From Brevibacterium atlanticum (GTDB taxonomy: Bacteria; Actinomycetota; Actinomycetes; Actinomycetales; Brevibacteriaceae): a stretch of 64,000 nucleotides of DNA. The stretch covers positions 1,674,001 to 1,738,000 of the forward strand of contig NZ_CP050152.1 of assembly GCF_011617245.1 (NCBI RefSeq), written 5' to 3'. The position numbers were made by a program, and so were the translations under genes. Below the pieces are notes generated by a model, which saw nothing but the letters and a program-made list of their open reading frames with translations, was not told where the DNA came from and ran no database searches. This document shows, in pieces, positions 48,702-59,401 of the stretch (position 1 is the stretch's first letter; the number at the start of each line of letters is the position of its first letter).

Positions 48702-48723
48702 TGTCAGTGGCGCCTGGCAGTGT
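48702..48723 (+). promoter_or_regulatory. PafBC-type (RecA-NDp-like) promoter for the DUF2695 gene
   Basis: TGTCAGTG-N8-CAGTGT closely matches the mycobacterial RecA-independent DNA-damage promoter TTGTCRGTG-N8-TANNNT, with one deviation in the -10 (CA for TA). The ATG at 48730 is six bases after the -10, so the message is probably leaderless. Confidence 0.7.
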
Positions 48724-48729
48724 GTGGCC

Positions 48730-49194
48730 ATGGACAAGAACACGATTGACACAGACATCAGAACGATCATCGACACGGCCTCGGACCGCATCCTCGCTCC
48801 ACGACCCGGCGAATGCCTGGTCTGCTACGTGCACCGCCAACTCAGCGAATTCGGCTGCAACGGCACTCGCCGTTTCGCGCTGACCTTCCGGGACCAGACG
48901 GCACCCAGGGCAACGGCCCTGCTCGATCGTCTCAGCAGCCTCGGCGCATGCTGCTGTGATGGGCAGATCATCCTCGACGCTTTCACCCTCGGGCCTCATC
49001 CGTGGATTCTCGACCCCGGCCCGTTCGCCGAAGCCCTCGGCACTCCGATCAGAATCGTCGACGTCGATGAGAACATGAGAATCGAGGACATCGATGAGAC
49101 GCAGATGACGGTGAAATATCTGTGCTGCAAGATCGTGCGCCGCGGTTCGACTCAGCCCTGCGGCAACTGGGTACGACAGTCAGGACGGGACTGA
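48730..49194 (+). CDS. DUF2695 protein
   Basis: A 154-residue protein with a DUF2695-like core: CLVCYVHRQLSEFGCNGTRR and LGACCCDGQIILDAFTLG. It is unusually rich in cysteine (nine), including Cys pairs that could bind metal. The function is unknown. The upstream PafBC-type promoter suggests induction by DNA damage. The start at 48730 is chosen because the promoter places transcription start at or near this ATG; a GTG two codons earlier is the alternative. Confidence 0.75.
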   Translation: MDKNTIDTDIRTIIDTASDRILAPRPGECLVCYVHRQLSEFGCNGTRRFALTFRDQTAPRATALLDRLSSLGACCCDGQIILDAFTLGPHPWILDPGPFAEALGTPIRIVDVDENMRIEDIDETQMTVKYLCCKIVRRGSTQPCGNWVRQSGRD

Positions 49195-49228
49195 GTTCGG
49201 GCGCGCATACGCTCGGCCCTCGGGCACA

Positions 49229-50389
49229 ATGGAGACCATGGCCGACACTCTTCCGCTCTTCCTCGACTGCGATCCGGGGATCGACGACGCAATTGCACTC
49301 GCCTATCTGTGCTGCCAGGCTGACGTCAATGTCGTCGGCATCGCAGCCTCCGGCGGAAATGTTCCGACCGCACAGGTGGCAGCGAATACTCGCGGATGGC
49401 TGGAGTTGGCCGGACGCAACGACATCCCGATCCACGTCGGACACGCACTGCCGCTGATCCGGCACGACAAGGAGACGACACCGGCCGAAGCTCTTGAATA
49501 TGCCGACCTCACACACGGCGACACCGGCGCCGGGTACGCGGTCCTGCCGAAACCGAGCGGACATGCACACCCCGTCTCGGCGGCCCAAGCGTGGGTCGAT
49601 GCGGCCCATGCCCACCCCGGCCAGCTTATCGGGGTCGTCATCGGCCCGACGACGAATCTTGCGCTCGCCCTCGAGATCGAACCTGCGCTGCCGCGACTGC
49701 TCAAACGGCTCTTCATCATGGGAGGCGCCTTCAACTATCGCGGCAACACCCATCCGACGACCGAGTGGAACGTCACCTTCGACCCGGAATCCACGGCCCG
49801 GGTGCTCGCGGCTTTCGGCAAGGCACACGCGCACGGCCAGCTCGCCCATTTGCCGGTCATCGCGCCGATCGAAGCCACCGAGGCCGTCGAGATGACGCCT
49901 GACCGAGTCAGCGACATCCTCGGCGGGGCAACGGACACCGATGCTGCTTGGCAGCGGATGCTCACCCAGCTGGCCGCGGCGCTGCGGTTCTACTTCGAAT
50001 TCCACGCATCCGACGGACTCGGTTATCTCGCTCACATCCACGATCCCTTCGTCCTCGCCTGCGCTCTCACCTGGGCACGGCAGAACACCACGTCCGCAGT
50101 CTGGCCGGCGCCGACGGATCCCGCCACCGGAGGGGAGGCCACGGTCGACGACGACCCGGTGACCGCCTCGGCGCCGGTGAGGGGAACGCACGGCACGCTG
50201 CCCTGGGCACGGACTCTGTTCGCACCCGTCGACGTCGAACTCACGGGTACACTCACACGAGGCGAAACCGTCGCCGACTGGCTCGGTCGGTGGGATCGAC
50301 CCGTCAACGCCGAGATCATCCGAACGGTCGACGCCCGGGCCTTCTTAGACCACCTCAGCTCCACACTGATGAAAGGACCATCCTCGTGA
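49229..50389 (+). CDS. Nucleoside hydrolase (IU-NH type)
   Basis: A 386-residue inosine-uridine nucleoside hydrolase family protein. The calcium-binding signature LFLDCDPGIDDAIALAYL is at the N-terminus, and the second-metal region HIHDPFVLACAL near residue 270; FIMGGAFNYRGNTHPTTEWN contains the substrate-binding Asn and metal-ligand region. It releases a base and ribose. It overlaps the ECF S-component start by four bases, so hydrolysis and uptake are linked. Starts at 49229 or 49238 are possible. Confidence 0.93.
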   Translation: METMADTLPLFLDCDPGIDDAIALAYLCCQADVNVVGIAASGGNVPTAQVAANTRGWLELAGRNDIPIHVGHALPLIRHDKETTPAEALEYADLTHGDTGAGYAVLPKPSGHAHPVSAAQAWVDAAHAHPGQLIGVVIGPTTNLALALEIEPALPRLLKRLFIMGGAFNYRGNTHPTTEWNVTFDPESTARVLAAFGKAHAHGQLAHLPVIAPIEATEAVEMTPDRVSDILGGATDTDAAWQRMLTQLAAALRFYFEFHASDGLGYLAHIHDPFVLACALTWARQNTTSAVWPAPTDPATGGEATVDDDPVTASAPVRGTHGTLPWARTLFAPVDVELTGTLTRGETVADWLGRWDRPVNAEIIRTVDARAFLDHLSSTLMKGPSS

Positions 50390-51270
50390 CTGCACCCTCC
50401 CCACAGCCTGGGCAGGGGCCGACCACCTCCTCGGTCGGTCCCGGACAAAGTCGCAGAACCGCACTTCCCCTGACTCTGACGCTGCTCGGAACCCTCGTCG
50501 TCATCGGCACCTACCTTTCGGTGCTCCTGACGCAACCTGCCAACCTCGGCATCGATCTCGGCCACACCACCCTGTGGGTGATGCTCGGCTACCTGCTCGG
50601 CGGAATCCTCCTGGCCGCCGGCACCCTTCCGCTCATTCCTCGCCGCGTCCTCGCGCTCATCCCCGTCGCCATCGCACTGAACATCATCATCGGGCAGATC
50701 ATCGGCAACTACACTCCGGTCCCGCTCTACCTCGACTCCATCGGCACTGTGATGATCGGCGTCCTCGCCGGTCCCGCTGCCGGTGCGTTCACCGGGATCA
50801 TCTCGAATCTCATCTGGGGAGTCACGCTGAGCCCCAGCGTCATCGCCTTCAGCTCCGGGGCAGCCTTCATCGGCGCCGCCGCCGGGTGGGCCGCCCGTCT
50901 CGGCGTCTTCCGTACACCCTGGACCGCTGTCATCGTCGGCGCGGTCGCCGGAGTCCCCGCCGGAGCCATCGGAGCCCCGGTCGCCGCATATGTGTTCGGC
51001 GGCGGGCTCGGTGCCGGAACCGGGGGAGTCGTGGCGATCCTCCAGGCCGCGGGAGTCGAGATGTTCAACGCAACCTTCGCACAGAGCATGTTCTCCGACA
51101 TCGTCGACAAGGCGCTCATCTTCGCTCTGGCCTACGTCGTCATTCGGTCCCTGCCCAAACGCATCATCGGACGCTACCCGTTCGCTGCATACAGCCGCCC
51201 GAAAGCAGTGCGAACAGGTTCGACGCCGCAGTCGGGTGCGCCGGTCGAGTCGGCTCCTACGGCGGAATGA
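50386..51270 (+). CDS. ECF transporter substrate-binding S component
   Basis: A 294-residue integral membrane protein with about six to seven hydrophobic helices; YLDSIGTVMIGVLAGPAAGA and GIISNLIWG match S components of the riboflavin-type/DUF group. It would bind the transported compound. The start is GTG at 50386 overlapping the nucleoside hydrolase stop. The gene order hydrolase-S-T-A suggests nucleosides, bases or ribose as cargo, an inference from context only. Confidence 0.85.
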   Translation: MTAPSPQPGQGPTTSSVGPGQSRRTALPLTLTLLGTLVVIGTYLSVLLTQPANLGIDLGHTTLWVMLGYLLGGILLAAGTLPLIPRRVLALIPVAIALNIIIGQIIGNYTPVPLYLDSIGTVMIGVLAGPAAGAFTGIISNLIWGVTLSPSVIAFSSGAAFIGAAAGWAARLGVFRTPWTAVIVGAVAGVPAGAIGAPVAAYVFGGGLGAGTGGVVAILQAAGVEMFNATFAQSMFSDIVDKALIFALAYVVIRSLPKRIIGRYPFAAYSRPKAVRTGSTPQSGAPVESAPTAE

Positions 51271-52157
51271 TCACCACCGGCACCGAGCCCGGGACGACCG
51301 GAGACGCCACCGGGCGCTCCGGGGCCGACCGGGTCGAACGTGAGCACGGGGCGGGCGACGACACTGCCGGCCGAGAGGGGCATCGGCTGCACCCGGCGAC
51401 CGAGATCGTCATCCTCTCTGCCGGTCTGCTGCTCGTCTTCGGCATCCCCTCGCCCGTGGTGCCCATCGCCGTCATCGTCGCCACAGTGCTCGCGGTCGCC
51501 TCCTCACCAGCGGTGCGGCTGCGGTCGTGGGCACTCGGCGTCGGCGTGCTGTGTCTGCCGACGCTGCTCGTGCTCATCATCGTGCAGGGACTGTTCTATC
51601 CCGGCGCGAACGCACATGTCCTCTGGGTGGCCGGACCCGCACACTTGAGCGTCGAAGGACTGAGCATCGCCGTCCAGATCTGGCTGCGCGTGACCGCACT
51701 CATCGGACTGTGCGCCCTCTTCGGGCTCGGCACTGACTCCGCCCGACTCTTCGACGGACTGCGCAGACTCCGACTGCCCGACAGCATCGCCTACGTATGC
51801 GCCTCCGCGATCGGACTCATCCCCCTCATCGGTACTCGGACCCGCAACGTCATCGAGGCCCGCAGGGCACGAGGCTGGGCGACGGGACGCTGGCGGGTGA
51901 GGATGCGGCTGATGCCGGGCATCGTCACCGGCCTGTTCACCTCGATGCTCATCGAGGTCGAACAGCGCCATGAGGTGCTCGAACAGAGCGGCTTGGGAAC
52001 GCAGGGCCGAACCGTCGAACTGCATGACCACCACGACAGTCGCAGGCAGGGACTGTTCCGGCTCCTCATCCCCGTCCTCGTGGTCGGACTCATCGCGTGC
52101 TCGGTGGCCGGTGTGCTCCCGCTGCCGGACACCGTGCAGCTGATCGGCATCAGCTGA
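51267..52157 (+). CDS. ECF transporter transmembrane T component
   Basis: A 296-residue EcfT. A polar N-terminus of ~45 residues precedes four to five hydrophobic helices; the coupling-helix motif IEARRARGW (Ala-Arg-Gly family signature) is near residue 200. It links the S component to the ATPases. ATG 51267 overlaps the ecfS stop (ATGA). Confidence 0.9.
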   Translation: MITTGTEPGTTGDATGRSGADRVEREHGAGDDTAGREGHRLHPATEIVILSAGLLLVFGIPSPVVPIAVIVATVLAVASSPAVRLRSWALGVGVLCLPTLLVLIIVQGLFYPGANAHVLWVAGPAHLSVEGLSIAVQIWLRVTALIGLCALFGLGTDSARLFDGLRRLRLPDSIAYVCASAIGLIPLIGTRTRNVIEARRARGWATGRWRVRMRLMPGIVTGLFTSMLIEVEQRHEVLEQSGLGTQGRTVELHDHHDSRRQGLFRLLIPVLVVGLIACSVAGVLPLPDTVQLIGIS

Positions 52158-52158
52158 G

Positions 52159-53616
52159 ATGACGACGAGCATGAAAGGCTTCGGCTTCACCTATGACGGC
52201 GAAGACGACCCAGCGCTGACTGAAGTCGATCTCGAACTGCCCGCCGGATCGATGACCGCGGTGCTCGGTCCCGTCGGCTCGGGCACATCGACCCTCAGCC
52301 GGGCACTGGCCGGTCTGCTCGAGACTCGAGGGGCGACGACTGGTCGCGTCGACGTCACCGGCACGGTCGGTTTCCTCGGGGACGATCCGGAGGCCCAGCT
52401 GAGCGGACTGACCAGCCGAGTCGACGACGAGACTCAGCTGGCGTGCCGACTGCGCGGCGTCGCTCCCGCCGACGCCGAGATCCGGGCACGCGATGTACTG
52501 GCCAGGCTTGGGATCGACGATCTGTGGAACCGGCGTCTCGATACCCTCTCCGGCGGTCAGCGCCAATTGGTGGCACTGTCGAGGATCGTGTCACTGGACC
52601 CCGATCTGCTCATCCTCGACCAGCCCTCGCAGTCGCTCGATCCCGCTATGCGTCGACGTCTGGCGGGGCTTCTGCGTGAGAACTGCGAGCGTGGAGGCTC
52701 GGTGCTCATCACCGGCCATCAGATCGACGAGCTCACCCTCGCCTGCGACGAGGTGCGCTTCCTCGGCGCGGGTGACGGTTTGGCCCAGGGCAGCGCTGAC
52801 GGTGACGGGCCGGCACAATCGGCTCGAGCGCGGGGAGTCTGGGACACCCGCCCAGACCACGCGGGCCAGTCACGAGGCGCGTCGATGACGGGGAGCCGGT
52901 CGGTCGAACCTCCGCGGGCCGAACCGGTGCTGAGCGTGAGGAGCCTGAGCGTGCGACGCGCGGGCCGAACCATTCTCGACGGTGTCGACGTCGATCTGCA
53001 TCGCGGCGAACTGACCACGCTCACCGGTGCCAACGGAGCGGGGAAGTCGACTCTGCTGCGCGGACTCATCGGGCTCCTCGGGCGCTCCGGAGACTGTGCG
53101 GGCACGGTCACGATGAGCCGCCTCGGCGAAGGAATCAACCTGTTGGATATGCCCGCTCACGCACGCAGCGCTCACCTCGGCTGGGTGGGGCAGGATCCGG
53201 GCATCCAGCTCTCGGCGGCGACCGTGCGGTCCGAACTCATGCATGCGTTCCCGCTGCCGCGGCACCGGCGGCGGGAACGCACACGAGTGCTCGAGGACCG
53301 TCGCCGCATCGTCGATGCGGTGCTGCACGAGGTCGATCTGGCTGCCGTCGACGAGGAACATCCGTTCGACCTCGACGGCCCCCGACGGAAGGACCTCGTC
53401 ATCGCTTCGGCCCTGGTCACCGGTGCTGACGTCCTGCTGCTCGACGAACCCACGATCGGGCGTGATCAGGCGGGGATGGACCGGCTCACCGCCATCATCG
53501 ATCGTGTCCTGCGCCGAGGCGGTGCCGTCCTTGCGGCGACCCACGACCAGCGGTGGGCTGCGGATTCGTCCCACCGTCGCCTGCACCTCGCCGAAGGGCG
53601 AGTTCACTCACTCTGA
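52159..53616 (+). CDS. Fused EcfA-EcfA' ATPase with one degenerate ATP site
   Basis: A 485-residue protein with two ABC domains. Domain 1 (residues ~1-215) has a Walker A with Thr43 in place of the lysine (GPVGSGTST), Walker B ending D154-Q155 instead of D-E, but an intact signature LSGGQ at 130-134. Domain 2 (from ~255) has intact Walker A (GANGAGKST, K296) and Walker B (D429-E430), but a degenerate signature LDGPRRK at 405-411. In a head-to-tail dimer this gives one full site (domain 2 Walker plus domain 1 signature) and one dead site. ECF ATPases are usually two genes. Confidence 0.9.
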   Translation: MTTSMKGFGFTYDGEDDPALTEVDLELPAGSMTAVLGPVGSGTSTLSRALAGLLETRGATTGRVDVTGTVGFLGDDPEAQLSGLTSRVDDETQLACRLRGVAPADAEIRARDVLARLGIDDLWNRRLDTLSGGQRQLVALSRIVSLDPDLLILDQPSQSLDPAMRRRLAGLLRENCERGGSVLITGHQIDELTLACDEVRFLGAGDGLAQGSADGDGPAQSARARGVWDTRPDHAGQSRGASMTGSRSVEPPRAEPVLSVRSLSVRRAGRTILDGVDVDLHRGELTTLTGANGAGKSTLLRGLIGLLGRSGDCAGTVTMSRLGEGINLLDMPAHARSAHLGWVGQDPGIQLSAATVRSELMHAFPLPRHRRRERTRVLEDRRRIVDAVLHEVDLAAVDEEHPFDLDGPRRKDLVIASALVTGADVLLLDEPTIGRDQAGMDRLTAIIDRVLRRGGAVLAATHDQRWAADSSHRRLHLAEGRVHSL

Positions 53617-53684
53617 GGAAGACGCGTCACTGATGCGGTCGTGTGATGCAATGGGGGTGAGAACCGTCGTCGGAAGGGATCGCA

Positions 53685-54182
53685 ATGCGCGGGCCATTGG
53701 TGCTCTTCGCCTCCTGGGCTCTCCATGATGCGGAGGAGGCGCTGACCTTTCCAACCACGGCTGACCAGCTGGCCGACCTCACTGGAATCGACTCCCTGCG
53801 GATGAGCACGAAGCAGAGTGTGGCCGCGATCGGTCTGGTGGGAGCCGCACTCGCCGTCGCAGGAATCCGAGGAGCGAGAACTCGCGGAGCGTCCCGGTTC
53901 TACCGAGCCTCCGTCGCCGGCCTCGAAGCACATGTGTTCACTCATCTGCTGTCGGCGGCGGCAGCCCGCCGATACACCTCAGGGGCGCTCACGGCACTGC
54001 CGATCATGTGGCCGGGAGCCGCCTTCGCCAGAAGCGAACTCGCTTCGCTCGGCAAGCCGCTGACCGCCTCCGACCGGCGGCTCGGTGCGCCGACGATGGG
54101 CGCGATCGCGCTCGCCGCTCACCTCATCGTCAGAATCGATTGGGCCTCTCGACTCAGACATCGAGGCTCGAGTCCGCGGTGA
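53685..54182 (+). CDS. HXXEE-domain membrane protein
   Basis: A 165-residue protein with the namesake motif ALHDAEEALTFP near the N-terminus (H-x-x-E-E). About four hydrophobic segments and a conserved central His (LEAHVFTHLLSA) fit the family. HXXEE proteins are uncharacterised multi-pass proteins possibly with metal-dependent activity. The gene follows the ECF operon by 68 bases. Confidence 0.75.
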   Translation: MRGPLVLFASWALHDAEEALTFPTTADQLADLTGIDSLRMSTKQSVAAIGLVGAALAVAGIRGARTRGASRFYRASVAGLEAHVFTHLLSAAAARRYTSGALTALPIMWPGAAFARSELASLGKPLTASDRRLGAPTMGAIALAAHLIVRIDWASRLRHRGSSPR

Positions 54183-54303
54183 CGGCGCCGGACCCGCGGA
54201 ACCGCTGCAGACTCTGCCATACGCGCCTACGTCTCCTCCGGCCGTGCGGGCAGGCCCGGGCACTGGCGGATCTCGTGTCAGGGGCGAGACCTAGATTGAG
54301 CAT

Positions 54304-55017
54304 ATGGATGACAACCGGTACTCTTTCGACGCTCTCTACAGCGAACCGCTCGAGCGCGGCTCACTCCCGCCGTGGGACGAGCTGCTCGTCTGCGTGCGCC
54401 GGCGCCCGCAGCTCGCAGCCTTCGACGCGGCGATGCTCGCCCGATCGCGCCCGGAGGCGACCGCTGGGACTCCAGAGGCAGTCGACGGGACTGGTCAGTC
54501 GATGGTCGCCGGTATCGCGGGGCCGATGGTCTTCGCGGAGGCGGAGGACCCCGAGATTGCGGACCGTGCACCGACGTGGGACGGCCTCGATACGGTGATC
54601 GCGGATCTGCGCGGACAGGACCTGCTGCACGTGACGCTGCCGACGACGCGCAGCCCCACCGTCATGCTCACTTACCTCATCGAAGAGCTCGCGCTCGTCT
54701 TCGCCGGTCACCGCGGGGACCGTCCCGACCACAACATCGTTGCCAGCGACCTTGGGCTCGATCAGGCTCAGGTGCGCTTCGAAACGGAATGCATCACGTG
54801 GCTGATTTCCGGTCGTCTCGGTCTGAGGTCGGCGGCGGCCGGATCGCTCAAGGGCTACCTCAAGGACGGGGACCTCATGCCCCCGATCTCACGTGATCGG
54901 GTGCTGCGGACGGTCGACGCCGTCGAAGGACTTTTCGGCGGGGCCCCTGCCCTTGGGGATCAGATCAGGCAGGAGGTTCCGAGTCTGTTCTCCCTCGACG
55001 AGCCGTTGGCTGTGTGA
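54304..55017 (+). CDS. Hypothetical protein
   Basis: A 237-residue soluble protein I cannot assign. It has LPPWDELLVCVRRRPQLAAF near the start and LLHVTLPTTRSPTVMLTYLI and FETECITWLISGRLGLRS later, suggesting an all-alpha or alpha/beta fold. TAGATT lies five bases before the ATG, so the mRNA may be leaderless. Composition is like the neighbours. No operon partner. Confidence 0.65.
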   Translation: MDDNRYSFDALYSEPLERGSLPPWDELLVCVRRRPQLAAFDAAMLARSRPEATAGTPEAVDGTGQSMVAGIAGPMVFAEAEDPEIADRAPTWDGLDTVIADLRGQDLLHVTLPTTRSPTVMLTYLIEELALVFAGHRGDRPDHNIVASDLGLDQAQVRFETECITWLISGRLGLRSAAAGSLKGYLKDGDLMPPISRDRVLRTVDAVEGLFGGAPALGDQIRQEVPSLFSLDEPLAV

Positions 55018-55078
55018 TCACCGGGGATCCGAGCACGCCCCCTGGTAATCACGGACGGATGAGAGCAGAATTCCAGCT

Positions 55079-55210
55079 ATGTCCACCCCACCGCAGCGAT
55101 GGACCGTCGCCACCGTCTACCCTGACATGTGGGTCGGTCCCGCAGACGACCCGCGAAACTCCGAGGGTCTGAGTCCCGACGGTGAGTCGGCCAAGGAGAG
55201 ACTGAAATGA
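55079..55210 (+). CDS. Small ORF translationally coupled to a VOC gene
   Basis: A 43-codon frame, MSTPPQRWTVATVYPDMWVG and onward to AKERLK, ends in an ATGA overlap with the VOC gene start. It may be a leader peptide, a real small protein or the truncated start of an older gene. No family recognised, and no clear ribosome-binding site. Confidence 0.35.
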   Translation: MSTPPQRWTVATVYPDMWVGPADDPRNSEGLSPDGESAKERLK

Positions 55211-55668
55211 TCAGAACCGTCCAGGTGACATTCGACTGCCGTGACCCGGAGACTGTCGCGAGATTCTGGGCGTCGGCACTCGGGTACATCATTCCGGGGC
55301 CACCCGGTGTTGAACTCGCCGATGGCGATGATCCGTTCGACGCATGGAGAAGCTTCATCGCCGACCTCGGCGTTGAACTGGGGCCAGAGGATATGCGTGC
55401 GGTCATCGAGGATCCCGGAGGGGTTGGGCCGCGACTGTTCTTCCAGGCCGTCCCCGAAGGCAAAACAGTGAAGAACCGGATCCATCTCGACGTCCGAGCT
55501 GCACCCGGTCTCGAAGGTGAGGAACGGATGGAGGCCTTGGAAGCCGAATGCGTTCGCTTGGCGCAGGCAGGAGCAAGCCGGCTGAGACGGGTCGAACCCG
55601 ACCCGCCGATGGAGCACGGCTTCATCGTCATGGCCGATCCCGAAGACAACGAATTCTGCCTTGACTGA
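55207..55668 (+). CDS. VOC-family glyoxalase-like protein
   Basis: A 153-residue VOC protein of the glyoxalase_6-like type: VQVTFDCRDPETVARFWASA at the start, NRIHLDVRAAPGLEGEERME in the middle and MADPEDNEFCLD at the end, the last carrying the metal-ligand glutamate. Such proteins are common in actinobacteria; substrate unknown. ATG 55207 overlaps the upstream small ORF; the end overlaps tdk by eight bases. Confidence 0.85.
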   Translation: MIRTVQVTFDCRDPETVARFWASALGYIIPGPPGVELADGDDPFDAWRSFIADLGVELGPEDMRAVIEDPGGVGPRLFFQAVPEGKTVKNRIHLDVRAAPGLEGEERMEALEAECVRLAQAGASRLRRVEPDPPMEHGFIVMADPEDNEFCLD

Positions 55669-56320
55669 CACCGGTCGCCTCATCGTCATCGCCGGACCGA
55701 TGTTCTCCGGCAAGTCCGAGGAACTCATGCGTCGGGTGCGGCGGGCTACCATCGCCGGGATCACCGTCTTGGTCGTGTCCCATTCACTCGACACTCGGTC
55801 GTCGATCTCGACGATCACCTCCCACATCGGAGCGAACATCCCTGCGGTGCCGCTGTCCGACGTGGAGTCCCTCGCCGAGGCTGCCCGATCCGCAGACTAC
55901 GATCTCGTCGCCATCGACGAAGCCCAGTTCTTCGGACCCGGTCTCATCCCCGCCGTCGACGAGCTCCTGCACAGAGGAGTCGACGTCATCGTCGAAGGGC
56001 TGTGTGTAACCTTCGACGGAGAACCGTTCGAACCTCTGCCGAGCCTCATGGCCGTGGCCGAAGAGGTGCTCCGACTCACCGCAGTGTGCACGATCTGCGG
56101 CCGCGACGCCGTCTTCCATCAGCGGCTGAGGGACTCGGAGAGCGGATCGGGCGCTGCAGCGGCAGCGAAGGCGGCCTCGGACGAGGACTCACCGAGTCCC
56201 GCCGCAACCGCCATCGATGCCAGCCACGTCGGTGGTCTCGACGCCTATGTCGCTCGCTGTCGCGAGCACTTCAGCCGGGGCCGCTCCACAATGTCAGCCG
56301 TCAGCAGTTCTCAGGCATAG
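55661..56320 (+). CDS. tdk: Thymidine kinase, type II
   Basis: A 219-residue Tdk. P-loop GPMFSGKSEELMRRVRR at residues 11-27, the DEAQFF motif with the Walker-B Asp and catalytic Glu near 85, and the zinc-binding CTICGRDA and CREHF cysteine/histidine sets. It phosphorylates thymidine with ATP for salvage. The Ala/Asp/Ser insert between the two zinc knuckles is longer than usual. The start is TTG at 55661. Confidence 0.93.
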   Translation: MTDTGRLIVIAGPMFSGKSEELMRRVRRATIAGITVLVVSHSLDTRSSISTITSHIGANIPAVPLSDVESLAEAARSADYDLVAIDEAQFFGPGLIPAVDELLHRGVDVIVEGLCVTFDGEPFEPLPSLMAVAEEVLRLTAVCTICGRDAVFHQRLRDSESGSGAAAAAKAASDEDSPSPAATAIDASHVGGLDAYVARCREHFSRGRSTMSAVSSSQA

Positions 56321-56475
56321 CCAGTGCTGGGACTGTCGCCTTTTGCCTGTGGGGTGCTGGCTCTGCCCTTGCCGCGCAGGCCTTCCTGAGACTGCGCAAT
56401 CGGCTTTGACCTCGCGATTCGGTTCTGATCTCACGTTTAGGCTCTGACCTGGAGGAACACTCGCCTGAAATCTCG

Positions 56476-56497
56476 TGTCAGTGGCGACCTCTAGTGT
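56476..56497 (+). promoter_or_regulatory. PafBC-type (RecA-NDp) promoter for the DUF222/HNH gene
   Basis: TGTCAGTG-N8-TAGTGT matches the mycobacterial consensus TTGTCRGTG-N8-TANNNT at every specified base except the first T. The ATG follows seven bases after the -10, implying a leaderless transcript. Confidence 0.85.
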
Positions 56498-56504
56498 GGT
56501 GGGT

Positions 56505-58169
56505 ATGGAAGCAGAGCAGGTTCCGGACGTTGTCACCGAGATTCATCGGTGGCGTCGTAGCCTGTCCGAATTGCCGCCGGCGACGACTGAGGAAGAGGCC
56601 GTTGATCGTATCACTGCGCTTGAGGAACTGAACTCGGCGAGTGCGGCGGCGCAGGCGCGTGAGACTCTGACTTTCGATATGCTTCGCCGCAATCGCGAAG
56701 CCGAGGATGGTGTGGTCAGTAGGAAGCAGGGTCGCGGTGTTGGTGCTGAGGTGGCTTTGGCGAGGAAGGTCTCGCGTTCGCGGGGTGCTGCCCTGTTGAA
56801 GTTCTCCCGTACCCTGCTGATGGATCTGCCCAAGACGTATCAGGCGATGAAGGGCGGTGACATCTCCGAAGAGAAGGCGCGGGTGGTGGCCAAGGAGTCT
56901 GACTGGTTGCCGCGGGAGAAGAAGCAGGAGCTCGATGAGCGTATGGCTGAGCGCCTGCCTGTGGTGGGTGTGAGGCGTCTGGGAAACGAGGTGCGGGCGT
57001 TGGCTCAGAAGCTCGATCAGCGGGCCGCGGTTGAGCATTTGGAGCGGTGTGTTCAGGAGCGGTCGGTGAGTGTGCGTCCTGCTCCGGGCAACATGGCTTA
57101 TCTGACTGCGTTGTTGCCGATGCCGCAGGCGGTTGCTGCCTTTGCGAACCTGAAGAAGTCGGCACAAACCGTCATCGCCACCGGCGACGCTGACGGGCGG
57201 TCGCAGGGCCAGATTGCTGCTGACCTGCTGGTTGAGCGCCTGACCGGGCAGGAATCGGCTGCGGCTGTGCCGACCGAGGTTCACCTCATCATGCAGGCCA
57301 GCAGCCTGTTCGGACCAGGGGAGGAGCCAGCATGGTTCCCCGGAGTCGGTCCGATTCCGGCCAAGGCGGCGCGGGACTTCGTGGCCGAGAACGATGCCGC
57401 GGTGTTCCTGCGTCGTCTCTATACCCGGCCGGAGGATGGACAGTTGGTGCGTATGGATTCGCGCCGCAGGGAGTTCGCTGGTCTGCTTCGGCGCATGGTG
57501 GTCATCCGTGATGATGTGTGTCGTTCGCCGTGGTGTGAGGCTGCGATCAAGCAGGCTGATCACGTGGTGTCCTTCGCCGACGGTGGAGACACCGATTGGG
57601 AGAACTCGTCCGGTTTGTGTGCGGCCCGCAATTATGTGAAGGAACTTGCGGGGTGGCGCCACAACGCGACCCCGGATGGGCTTGAGGTGGTTACGCCTAC
57701 GGGTCACCGGTACCGTTCGCGCACGAGACCGATCAGTGAGCCTGATCCGGGTTGGGTCCATGGTGAGATCGTCGAAGGGTCGACCGGTCCGCCGGGGGTT
57801 CCGGCGGGAACTGGTCCGCCGGACTCGGCGGGAACCAGTCCGCTGAACCCGGCGGTCGGTTCCGACCCACCATCGACCGACATACCAGCCGCTGAGGCTG
57901 GAACACCACCACCGACCGCGAAGGTCGGGGAGACGACGACACCGACGGACGAGGTCGAAGCAGCGGGTGCCGACGGCGACAATGTCGGCGACCAGCAGTG
58001 GCAGATCCACCTGCCGTGGCGCTACCTCCGCCGGGCCGAGCAACCCCCACCGTTGAGGATCGGGCGGACGACCGTCAATGTCGATGTCTATGACGCCGAC
58101 TACGAGCCGCTGAGCCCGGTGGAGGAGTTGCTGCTCACTGGGATCCGGGAACATCTCGGTTCCCGATGA
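56505..58169 (+). CDS. DUF222 and HNH endonuclease domain protein (13E12 type)
   Basis: A 554-residue protein. The DUF222 helical region spans roughly residues 20-310. The HNH domain follows at about 345-385: CRSPWCEAAIKQADHVVSFA and ENSSGLCAARNYVKELAGW. The C-terminal ~150 residues are Pro/Gly/Thr-rich with short repeats (GPPGVPAGTGPPDSAGTSP). Family members are numerous in actinobacteria and include the mycobacterial 13E12 repeat proteins. Codon use is less GC3-biased than the neighbours. The upstream damage promoter fixes the start. Confidence 0.9.
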   Translation: MEAEQVPDVVTEIHRWRRSLSELPPATTEEEAVDRITALEELNSASAAAQARETLTFDMLRRNREAEDGVVSRKQGRGVGAEVALARKVSRSRGAALLKFSRTLLMDLPKTYQAMKGGDISEEKARVVAKESDWLPREKKQELDERMAERLPVVGVRRLGNEVRALAQKLDQRAAVEHLERCVQERSVSVRPAPGNMAYLTALLPMPQAVAAFANLKKSAQTVIATGDADGRSQGQIAADLLVERLTGQESAAAVPTEVHLIMQASSLFGPGEEPAWFPGVGPIPAKAARDFVAENDAAVFLRRLYTRPEDGQLVRMDSRRREFAGLLRRMVVIRDDVCRSPWCEAAIKQADHVVSFADGGDTDWENSSGLCAARNYVKELAGWRHNATPDGLEVVTPTGHRYRSRTRPISEPDPGWVHGEIVEGSTGPPGVPAGTGPPDSAGTSPLNPAVGSDPPSTDIPAAEAGTPPPTAKVGETTTPTDEVEAAGADGDNVGDQQWQIHLPWRYLRRAEQPPPLRIGRTTVNVDVYDADYEPLSPVEELLLTGIREHLGSR

Positions 58170-58244: not shown

Positions 58245-58889
58245 TCAGTCGTCGATGCTCTCCCACACCTCACGCCAGATCCTGGCGAGGTCGGCAACCT
58301 GGTAGTGGGCGTTGAGGCCGCTGGGCTGGGGCACCACATGCAGGGCCACTGAGTTCGGCCACTCTGCGATGAGCGACGTGTCCTGCCTGCCGAACTGTGC
58401 CTTCGGCAGTGCGAAGCCGGTCCGAAACGAGGTGATGCCGGCGATCGCGACGGCGCGCGGTCGAATGTCGGCCAGCCGCTCGACGAGATGGGCGGCACCA
58501 TCGCGCAGCTCCTGCCGGGACAGCTCATCCGCGCGGACAGTGGCACGTCCGACGAGGTTGGTCAGCCCGATGCCGCGGGCCAGCAGCTGCTGTTCATCGG
58601 CAGGGTCGAGTCCGCGGGAGGCATCGACGAGGTGGTCGGTGAGTCCCGCTTCGAAGAGCGATGGCCAGAATCGGTTGCCGGGACGGGCGAAGGGGGCGTT
58701 GACCGCCGCCGTCCACAGACCCGGGTTGATGCCGACGATGAGCAGCCTCAGTCCGGCAGAATCGGTGGGCAGAATATCGTCGATCGCGTTCGGATCGTCG
58801 GTGGCGAAAGCTGCGAGATCGTCCTTCGTCGGTTTGCGACCACCCAGGGGAGGCGGGCGACGTCTGCTGACATTGCTTTTCTCACTCAC
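58245..58889 (-). CDS. mug: Mug-type G:T/U mismatch DNA glycosylase
   Basis: A 214-residue uracil-DNA-glycosylase-fold protein. LLIVGINPGLWTAAVNAPFA is the GINPG active-site motif and VVPQPSGLNAHY the (N/H)PSGL intercalation motif. It removes thymine or uracil mispaired with guanine in base-excision repair. GTG 58889 is chosen because a TAGTGT hexamer lies seven bases before it, suiting a leaderless start; GTG 58898 is the alternative. Divergent from the SRPBCC gene. Confidence 0.9.
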   Translation of the reverse strand: MSEKSNVSRRRPPPLGGRKPTKDDLAAFATDDPNAIDDILPTDSAGLRLLIVGINPGLWTAAVNAPFARPGNRFWPSLFEAGLTDHLVDASRGLDPADEQQLLARGIGLTNLVGRATVRADELSRQELRDGAAHLVERLADIRPRAVAIAGITSFRTGFALPKAQFGRQDTSLIAEWPNSVALHVVPQPSGLNAHYQVADLARIWREVWESIDD

Positions 58890-58912
58890 GTCTTTCACAC
58901 TACCGTCGTACC

Positions 58913-59401
58913 ATGAGCCACGATCATGTGACACCGCGGGCGGGCGAATCATCGCCCTTCCATTTCGACGATCGCTGGAGCGTGGACGCCGATATCGACA
59001 CTGTCTGGGCGGTACTCGAACGGGTCGATGAGTGGCCGCAGTGGTGGCCGGGGCTTGCCGCGGTCGAACCCGTCGGGGACAAGGTGCGGCCGGGCAGTCG
59101 AGCGCAGGTCGTCGTGCGCACACCGATCGGGGTGCCGCTGCGGTTCACCCTCGAAGTCGAGGCCCTGACTGCTCCGAACCTCGTTGTGCTCCGTGCCCAC
59201 GGTGACCTGCGCGGCGAGGGCGTGTGGACCGTGAGCGAACACGACGGGACCACCCACGTCGATTCCCTCTGGTGTGTGACCTCGACGCGGACGATGATCA
59301 GAATCCTTCGGCCCGTCGCGAGCCTCATGCATGCGATTGTGATGCGAGCCGGAGAGCGCGGTCTCGCGGCGCGACTGACCGACCCGCGTGCTCACCCATG
59401 A
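58913..59401 (+). CDS. SRPBCC-family polyketide-cyclase-like protein
   Basis: A 162-residue START-like protein: RWSVDADIDTVWAVLERVDE and WPQWWPGLAAVEPVG at the start, GEGVWTVSEHDGTTHVDSLW later, and a last amphipathic helix. It probably binds a hydrophobic ligand; no reaction can be named. Divergent from mug. Confidence 0.85.
   Translation: MSHDHVTPRAGESSPFHFDDRWSVDADIDTVWAVLERVDEWPQWWPGLAAVEPVGDKVRPGSRAQVVVRTPIGVPLRFTLEVEALTAPNLVVLRAHGDLRGEGVWTVSEHDGTTHVDSLWCVTSTRTMIRILRPVASLMHAIVMRAGERGLAARLTDPRAHP

Follow-up and report, generated by a model that had tools for sequence, protein, structure and literature searches.

The locus considered here raises the question of whether a short promoter element, placed before an uncharacterized DUF2695 gene and a DUF222/HNH gene, ties DUF2695 to the DNA-damage response. 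A sequence-only reading of this DNA had claimed as much, describing leaderless, PafBC-type promoters before both genes. The window, i.e., the whole 64-kb stretch analyzed, covers positions 1,674,001–1,738,000 of the 4.16-Mb genome, a single contig, of a Brevibacterium.

Three promoters and their conservation in Brevibacterium

Both sites were found, with flanking bases as quoted in that reading and with start codons at the claimed distance of six to seven bases from the −10. PafBC-type promoter 1 (48702..48723, + strand) reads TGTCAGTG-GCGCCTGG-CAGTGT. Its −26 element TGTCAGTG occupies 48702-48709 and its −10, CAGTGT, 48718-48723, while the spacer GCGCCTGG carries a TGn extension with TG at 48715-48716, all on the + strand. 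A 6-nt gap leads from the −10 to the ATG at 48730 of the DUF2695 gene (48730..49194, + strand), which encodes a 154-aa protein with a PF10905 match. PafBC-type promoter 3 (56476..56497, + strand), TGTCAGTG-GCGACCTC-TAGTGT, stands 7 nt before the ATG at 56505 of the DUF222/HNH gene (56505..58169, + strand; 554 aa, PF02720 match). A further promoter falls within the interval of the sequence-only reading but was missing from its account: PafBC-type promoter 2 (54276..54297, + strand), TGTCAGGG-GCGAGACC-TAGATT, where GCGAGACC is the N8 spacer. It has 6 nt between the −10 and the ATG at 54304 of a 237-aa ORF (54304..55017, + strand) of unassigned function, described here as ImmA/IrrE-like. The −26 element TGTC[GA]G is present at all three sites and in the orthologues; the DUF222 and 54304 genes also have a −10 of the form TANNNT that begins 16 nt downstream of the initial T of TGTC. 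Convergent with the DUF222 gene lies a uracil-DNA glycosylase superfamily gene (58245-59123, − strand), with no motif seen near its start.

All three promoters are conserved within the genus. Upstream of DUF2695, the TGTCAG block occurs at a fixed distance from the ATG in 30/30 orthologues, 27 of which have the exact TGTCAGTG. The DUF222 promoter retains 9/9 motif positions in 30/30 orthologues with a gap of 6-7 nt, and the 54304-gene promoter 8-9 of 9 positions in 30/30, again 6-7 nt from the start (the start was taken from flanking DNA in the orthologues L259 and L262, whose protein matches set in farther downstream). In column statistics, for which three DUF2695 sequences were mis-registered so that the DUF2695 spacer and −10 figures are slightly low, the mean top-base frequency of the octamer was 0.92-0.97 vs. 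0.54-0.66 for the 25 bases upstream; for TGTCAGTG it was 0.96 in the DUF2695 promoter and 0.97 in the DUF222 promoter. Beyond these two sites, the upstream DNA diverges among orthologues. Five more diverged Brevibacterium DUF2695 genes (L095, L099, L102, L113, and L115), which lack PfkB and nucleoside hydrolase neighbors, have TGTCCG in place of TGTCAG with the spacing unchanged.

The DUF2695 promoter within and beyond the genus

The −10 of the Brevibacterium DUF2695 promoter is of a non-standard, extended type that the sequence-only reading did not recognize. Its first base is C in the window (CAGTGT) and mostly A in orthologues (mostly AANNGT), with G also found. T−12 has been lost, whereas the A in second place, the closing T, and a TG two bases ahead of the hexamer persist; the DUF222 and 54304 promoters have an ordinary TA without TG. 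The YANNNT form proposed for the −10 accordingly describes the DUF222 promoter but fails in most DUF2695 orthologues, where A, C, or G stands first. We read this as an extended −10 (TGn) that would substitute for T−12. Alternatively, the DUF2695 promoter of Brevibacterium may depend less on PafBC. In the stronger form of this reading it would act chiefly as an ordinary extended −10 promoter of sigma-A, under little or no damage control, as conservation of the TGn extension and not of T−12 might suggest. That form is unlikely, given that TGTCAGTG is equally conserved in the DUF2695 and DUF222 promoters and that DUF2695 homologues of other genera have a standard TA-type −10.

For the comparison beyond the genus, upstream regions were scored against TGTC[GA]G-N10-TANNNT, a motif of 9 positions from work on M. 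tuberculosis (PMC8151990), with a threshold of 8/9. Scores of at least 8/9 were reached at 75 of 130 DUF2695 loci; the controls gave 0 for the reversed motif, 1 for the opposite strand, 1 for coding sequence, and 0 for DNA 600 bp upstream, and shuffles predict 0.9% of loci. As many of the 130 loci come from close relatives, a grouping at genus level was also made, and the motif was present in 20 of 33 actinobacterial groups and missing from 13 (e.g., Arthrobacter and Agrococcus). When one sequence was drawn per group and 6-mers were ranked without reference to the motif, TGTCGG came first, with a mean of 16.75 of 32 groups (next, 10.35). A TA follows TGTCRG at offset 16 in 23/45 cases and at any other offset in 5 or fewer. 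Most motif-bearing homologues outside Brevibacterium have a TANNNT −10, and in some the final base is not T. The counts by locus and by group argue strongly for the proposed tie between DUF2695 and the damage response and carry it well beyond Brevibacterium.

The spacing to the start codon bears on the claim of leaderless starts. Among non-Brevibacterium motif loci, the gap from −10 to start codon is 6-7 nt in 27/46, which would leave no space for a ribosome-binding site; in those with a gap of >20 nt, a Shine-Dalgarno-like purine-rich run precedes the start in 18/18. Such a split is to be expected if transcription starts ~7 nt after the −10, and start-codon spacing lends the leaderless claim strong support.

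The gene neighborhood of DUF2695 is not carried across genera. PfkB and nucleoside hydrolase genes flank it in most Brevibacterium and not elsewhere, and outside the genus no recurring neighbor family was found, the largest cluster consisting mostly of antisense frames of DUF2695 itself. The gene occurs in 18/395 sampled genomes of the class, and the three papers found to name DUF2695 do not deal with damage; this may explain why work on the mycobacterial regulon has not led to it.

The probable regulator and its predicted regulon

Two adjoining WYL genes at 2,122,377-2,124,312, with tatC next after them, encode homologues of the PafB (E 8e-34) and PafC (E 1e-37) chains in solved PafBC structures. 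Single-stranded DNA activates PafBC, which is positioned between the promoter and domain 4 of sigma-A; in the transcription complex, PafB reads the −26 element (PMC11804915). Across DUF2695 genomes, a close PafB homologue (E <1e-28) was found in 12/13 with the motif vs. 6/12 without it (Fisher p 0.03), in a small set that was grouped by hand with close relatives counted apart. The association of PafB with the motif before DUF2695 is only suggestive, and the motif is missing there from some genomes that do encode a close PafB homologue. In four genomes (G534, G479, G771, and G619) the best PafB match is weak and lies in a frame of 669-944 aa, and these genomes also have no motif before DUF2695; in G666 the best match lies in a 779-aa frame and the motif is present. 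The 669-944 aa frames with a PafB match are perhaps fused PafBC.

Could another regulator read the element? ClgR was earlier proposed for the RecA-independent motif (reference in PMC5656591), and a second WYL-domain regulator (L016, genome position 2108342) lies behind a promoter that bears the motif, with TGTCAGTG repeated there in inverted orientation (CACTGACA...TGTCAGTG), which suggests that this factor is damage-inducible or self-regulated. Nevertheless, control of the sites by either of these is very unlikely, because later work has PafB reading the −26 element (PMC11804915) and the Brevibacterium genome encodes both PafB and PafC. Marginally less probable again is LexA/RecA (SOS) control with TGTCAGTG as a secondary element. 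Five putative HNH endonucleases of M. tuberculosis were RecA-dependent after mitomycin C (PMC8151990), and some genes use both systems (PMC8223512), but no CGAAC-N4-GTTCG site, allowing ≤1 mismatch, was found near the DUF2695 or DUF222 gene, and the 6 such matches in the 64-kb window are at chance level.

PafBC is the preferred reader of the element, and the claim that the promoters are of PafBC type gains from the distribution of that element as well as from the presence of both subunits. The pattern proposed in the sequence-only reading, TGTCRGTG-N8-YANNNT, has 32 matches in the 4.16-Mb genome and 1 when reversed. For TGTCRG-N10-TANNNT, the less strict form from the literature, the corresponding counts are 38 and 17, so that the full TGTCRGTG octamer holds much of the signal; some of the strict matches to the literature pattern are due to chance. 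Among 37 strict sites, start codons of long open frames fall at +6 after the −10 in 9 and at +7 in 8, the next most frequent position being +1 (5). The genes behind sites include recA, uvrA, a PD-(D/E)XK nuclease, a WYL regulator, and DUF222/HNH genes, along with dnaX, pcrA, uvrB, holA, a uvrA paralogue, a DNA polymerase I-like gene, and a cytosine methyltransferase. Core repair genes are preceded by the same element, and the genes that share it make up a predicted DNA-repair regulon. A gene behind the motif (L281, genome position 2114268) begins with a GTG located 8 nt downstream of the −10 and combines a PolA-like N-terminal region with a DnaQ/epsilon-type exonuclease match at residues 360-501. 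Although ~2.3 one-mismatch matches are expected per window, a chance origin of the sites has a negligible probability and is refuted by conservation, given the excess of exact matches genome-wide and the 30/30 conservation with fixed spacing at each of the three genes.

The proteins, the proposed mechanism, and its meaning

The DUF2695 protein is identified by PF10905 (E 3.2e-10; 40.4 bits vs. a curated cut-off of 25). Seven cysteines are invariant in 78 homologues (C29, C32, C43, C75, C77, C107, and C118 in L079 numbering); the window protein keeps 6/7, with Gly at the third position of CDC. One homologue has a confident AF2 model (mean pLDDT 94), for which neither the PDB nor a set of viral models yielded a significant match, a profile search for a solved relative found none, and no phage copies of DUF2695 were found. 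A resemblance to winged-helix folds was rejected as not significant (E 0.7 or worse). From the cysteines, we infer that the protein may bind metal; it is probably a small, mostly helical, seven-cysteine metal-binding factor in damage repair or tolerance.

The DUF222 protein is identified by PF02720 (E 1.6e-12; 47.8 bits vs. a cut-off of 24.4). Its HNH region lacks an intact cysteine pair (CxxC before N), as the last Cys is replaced by Arg (LCAARN vs. LCAACN in a paralogue) at a position that is Cys in 28 matched orthologues and the paralogue; the window copy may therefore be impaired. The paralogue, at 2.839 Mb, has the same promoter, and its DNA is 96% identical over 1547 bases, so that these two sites represent one duplication and are not independent. 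A defense-system search with DUF222 returned a weak HNH-region match only. Pfam gave no match for the 54304 protein. Over residues 28-131, in its N-terminal half, a longer orthologue shows weak similarity to a plasmid protein annotated as ImmA/IrrE, and the HExxH zinc motif expected of an ImmA/IrrE metallopeptidase is not present in the 11 aligned sequences. The window species and some relatives are without a central stretch that the longer orthologues have.

Very probably, the three sites are leaderless PafBC-dependent promoters of a damage-induced regulon that includes DUF2695 as an accessory member. Promoter identity, conservation, spacing, and the presence of PafB and PafC are established by sequence comparison, and from these we infer induction, PafBC dependence, the start site, and protein function. 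As in mycobacteria, single-stranded DNA arising from damage would activate the PafB-PafC heterodimer, which would dock between the promoter and domain 4 of sigma-A and read TGTCAGTG as a −26 element replacing the −35. Transcription would then start at or beside the A of the start codon, ~7 nt downstream of the −10, and DUF2695, the ImmA/IrrE-like ORF, and DUF222/HNH would be co-induced with recA, uvrA, uvrB, pcrA, dnaX, and holA. Across Actinomycetes, DUF2695 would belong to this regulon as an accessory gene, with T−12 putatively exchanged for a TGn-extended −10 in Brevibacterium.

Among the closest known systems are the Mycobacterium PafBC/RecA-NDp (P1) promoters, which share the TGTC[GA]G-N10-TANNNT motif, its spacing, recA/uvrA/uvrB-type targets, the presence of PafB and PafC, and tatC beside pafBC. 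Unlike Mycobacterium, Brevibacterium favors TGTCAGTG, has many leaderless targets, and has a TGn-extended −10 without T−12 at DUF2695; moreover, its DUF222/HNH genes have a PafBC-type promoter, whereas HNH endonucleases of M. tuberculosis were RecA-dependent (PMC8151990). A precedent exists in the SCO6735 macrodomain gene of Streptomyces coelicolor, an uncharacterized gene that was linked to damage by a conserved RecA-NDp promoter and later shown to be UV-inducible (PMC5087735). DUF2695 belongs to a different protein family, and its assignment to the damage response is a prediction from sequence. The DUF222/HNH genes resemble the 13E12 repeat family in their DUF222 domain, HNH region, and multiple copies in one genome; they differ in the PafBC-type promoter and, for the window copy, in the loss of one HNH cysteine.

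RecA-NDp promoters were already known in actinobacteria outside mycobacteria (PMC8223512, PMC5087735). What is new is the predicted placement in the PafBC regulon, through comparative genomics, of DUF2695 along with the DUF222/HNH genes and the ImmA/IrrE-like gene described here. Tentatively, and with slightly less than even confidence, DUF2695 may be a widespread, hitherto unrecognized effector of the RecA-independent damage response, i.e., a seven-cysteine metal-binder, with a fold without a significant PDB match, that is controlled by PafBC in many families despite changing neighbors. The placement would extend the PafBC regulon by three conserved genes outside mycobacteria, and the Brevibacterium DUF222/HNH genes appear to be under PafBC, not LexA. 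Leaderless transcription induced by damage could be studied cleanly in Brevibacterium, and the uncharacterized DUF2695 family would gain a specific pathway.
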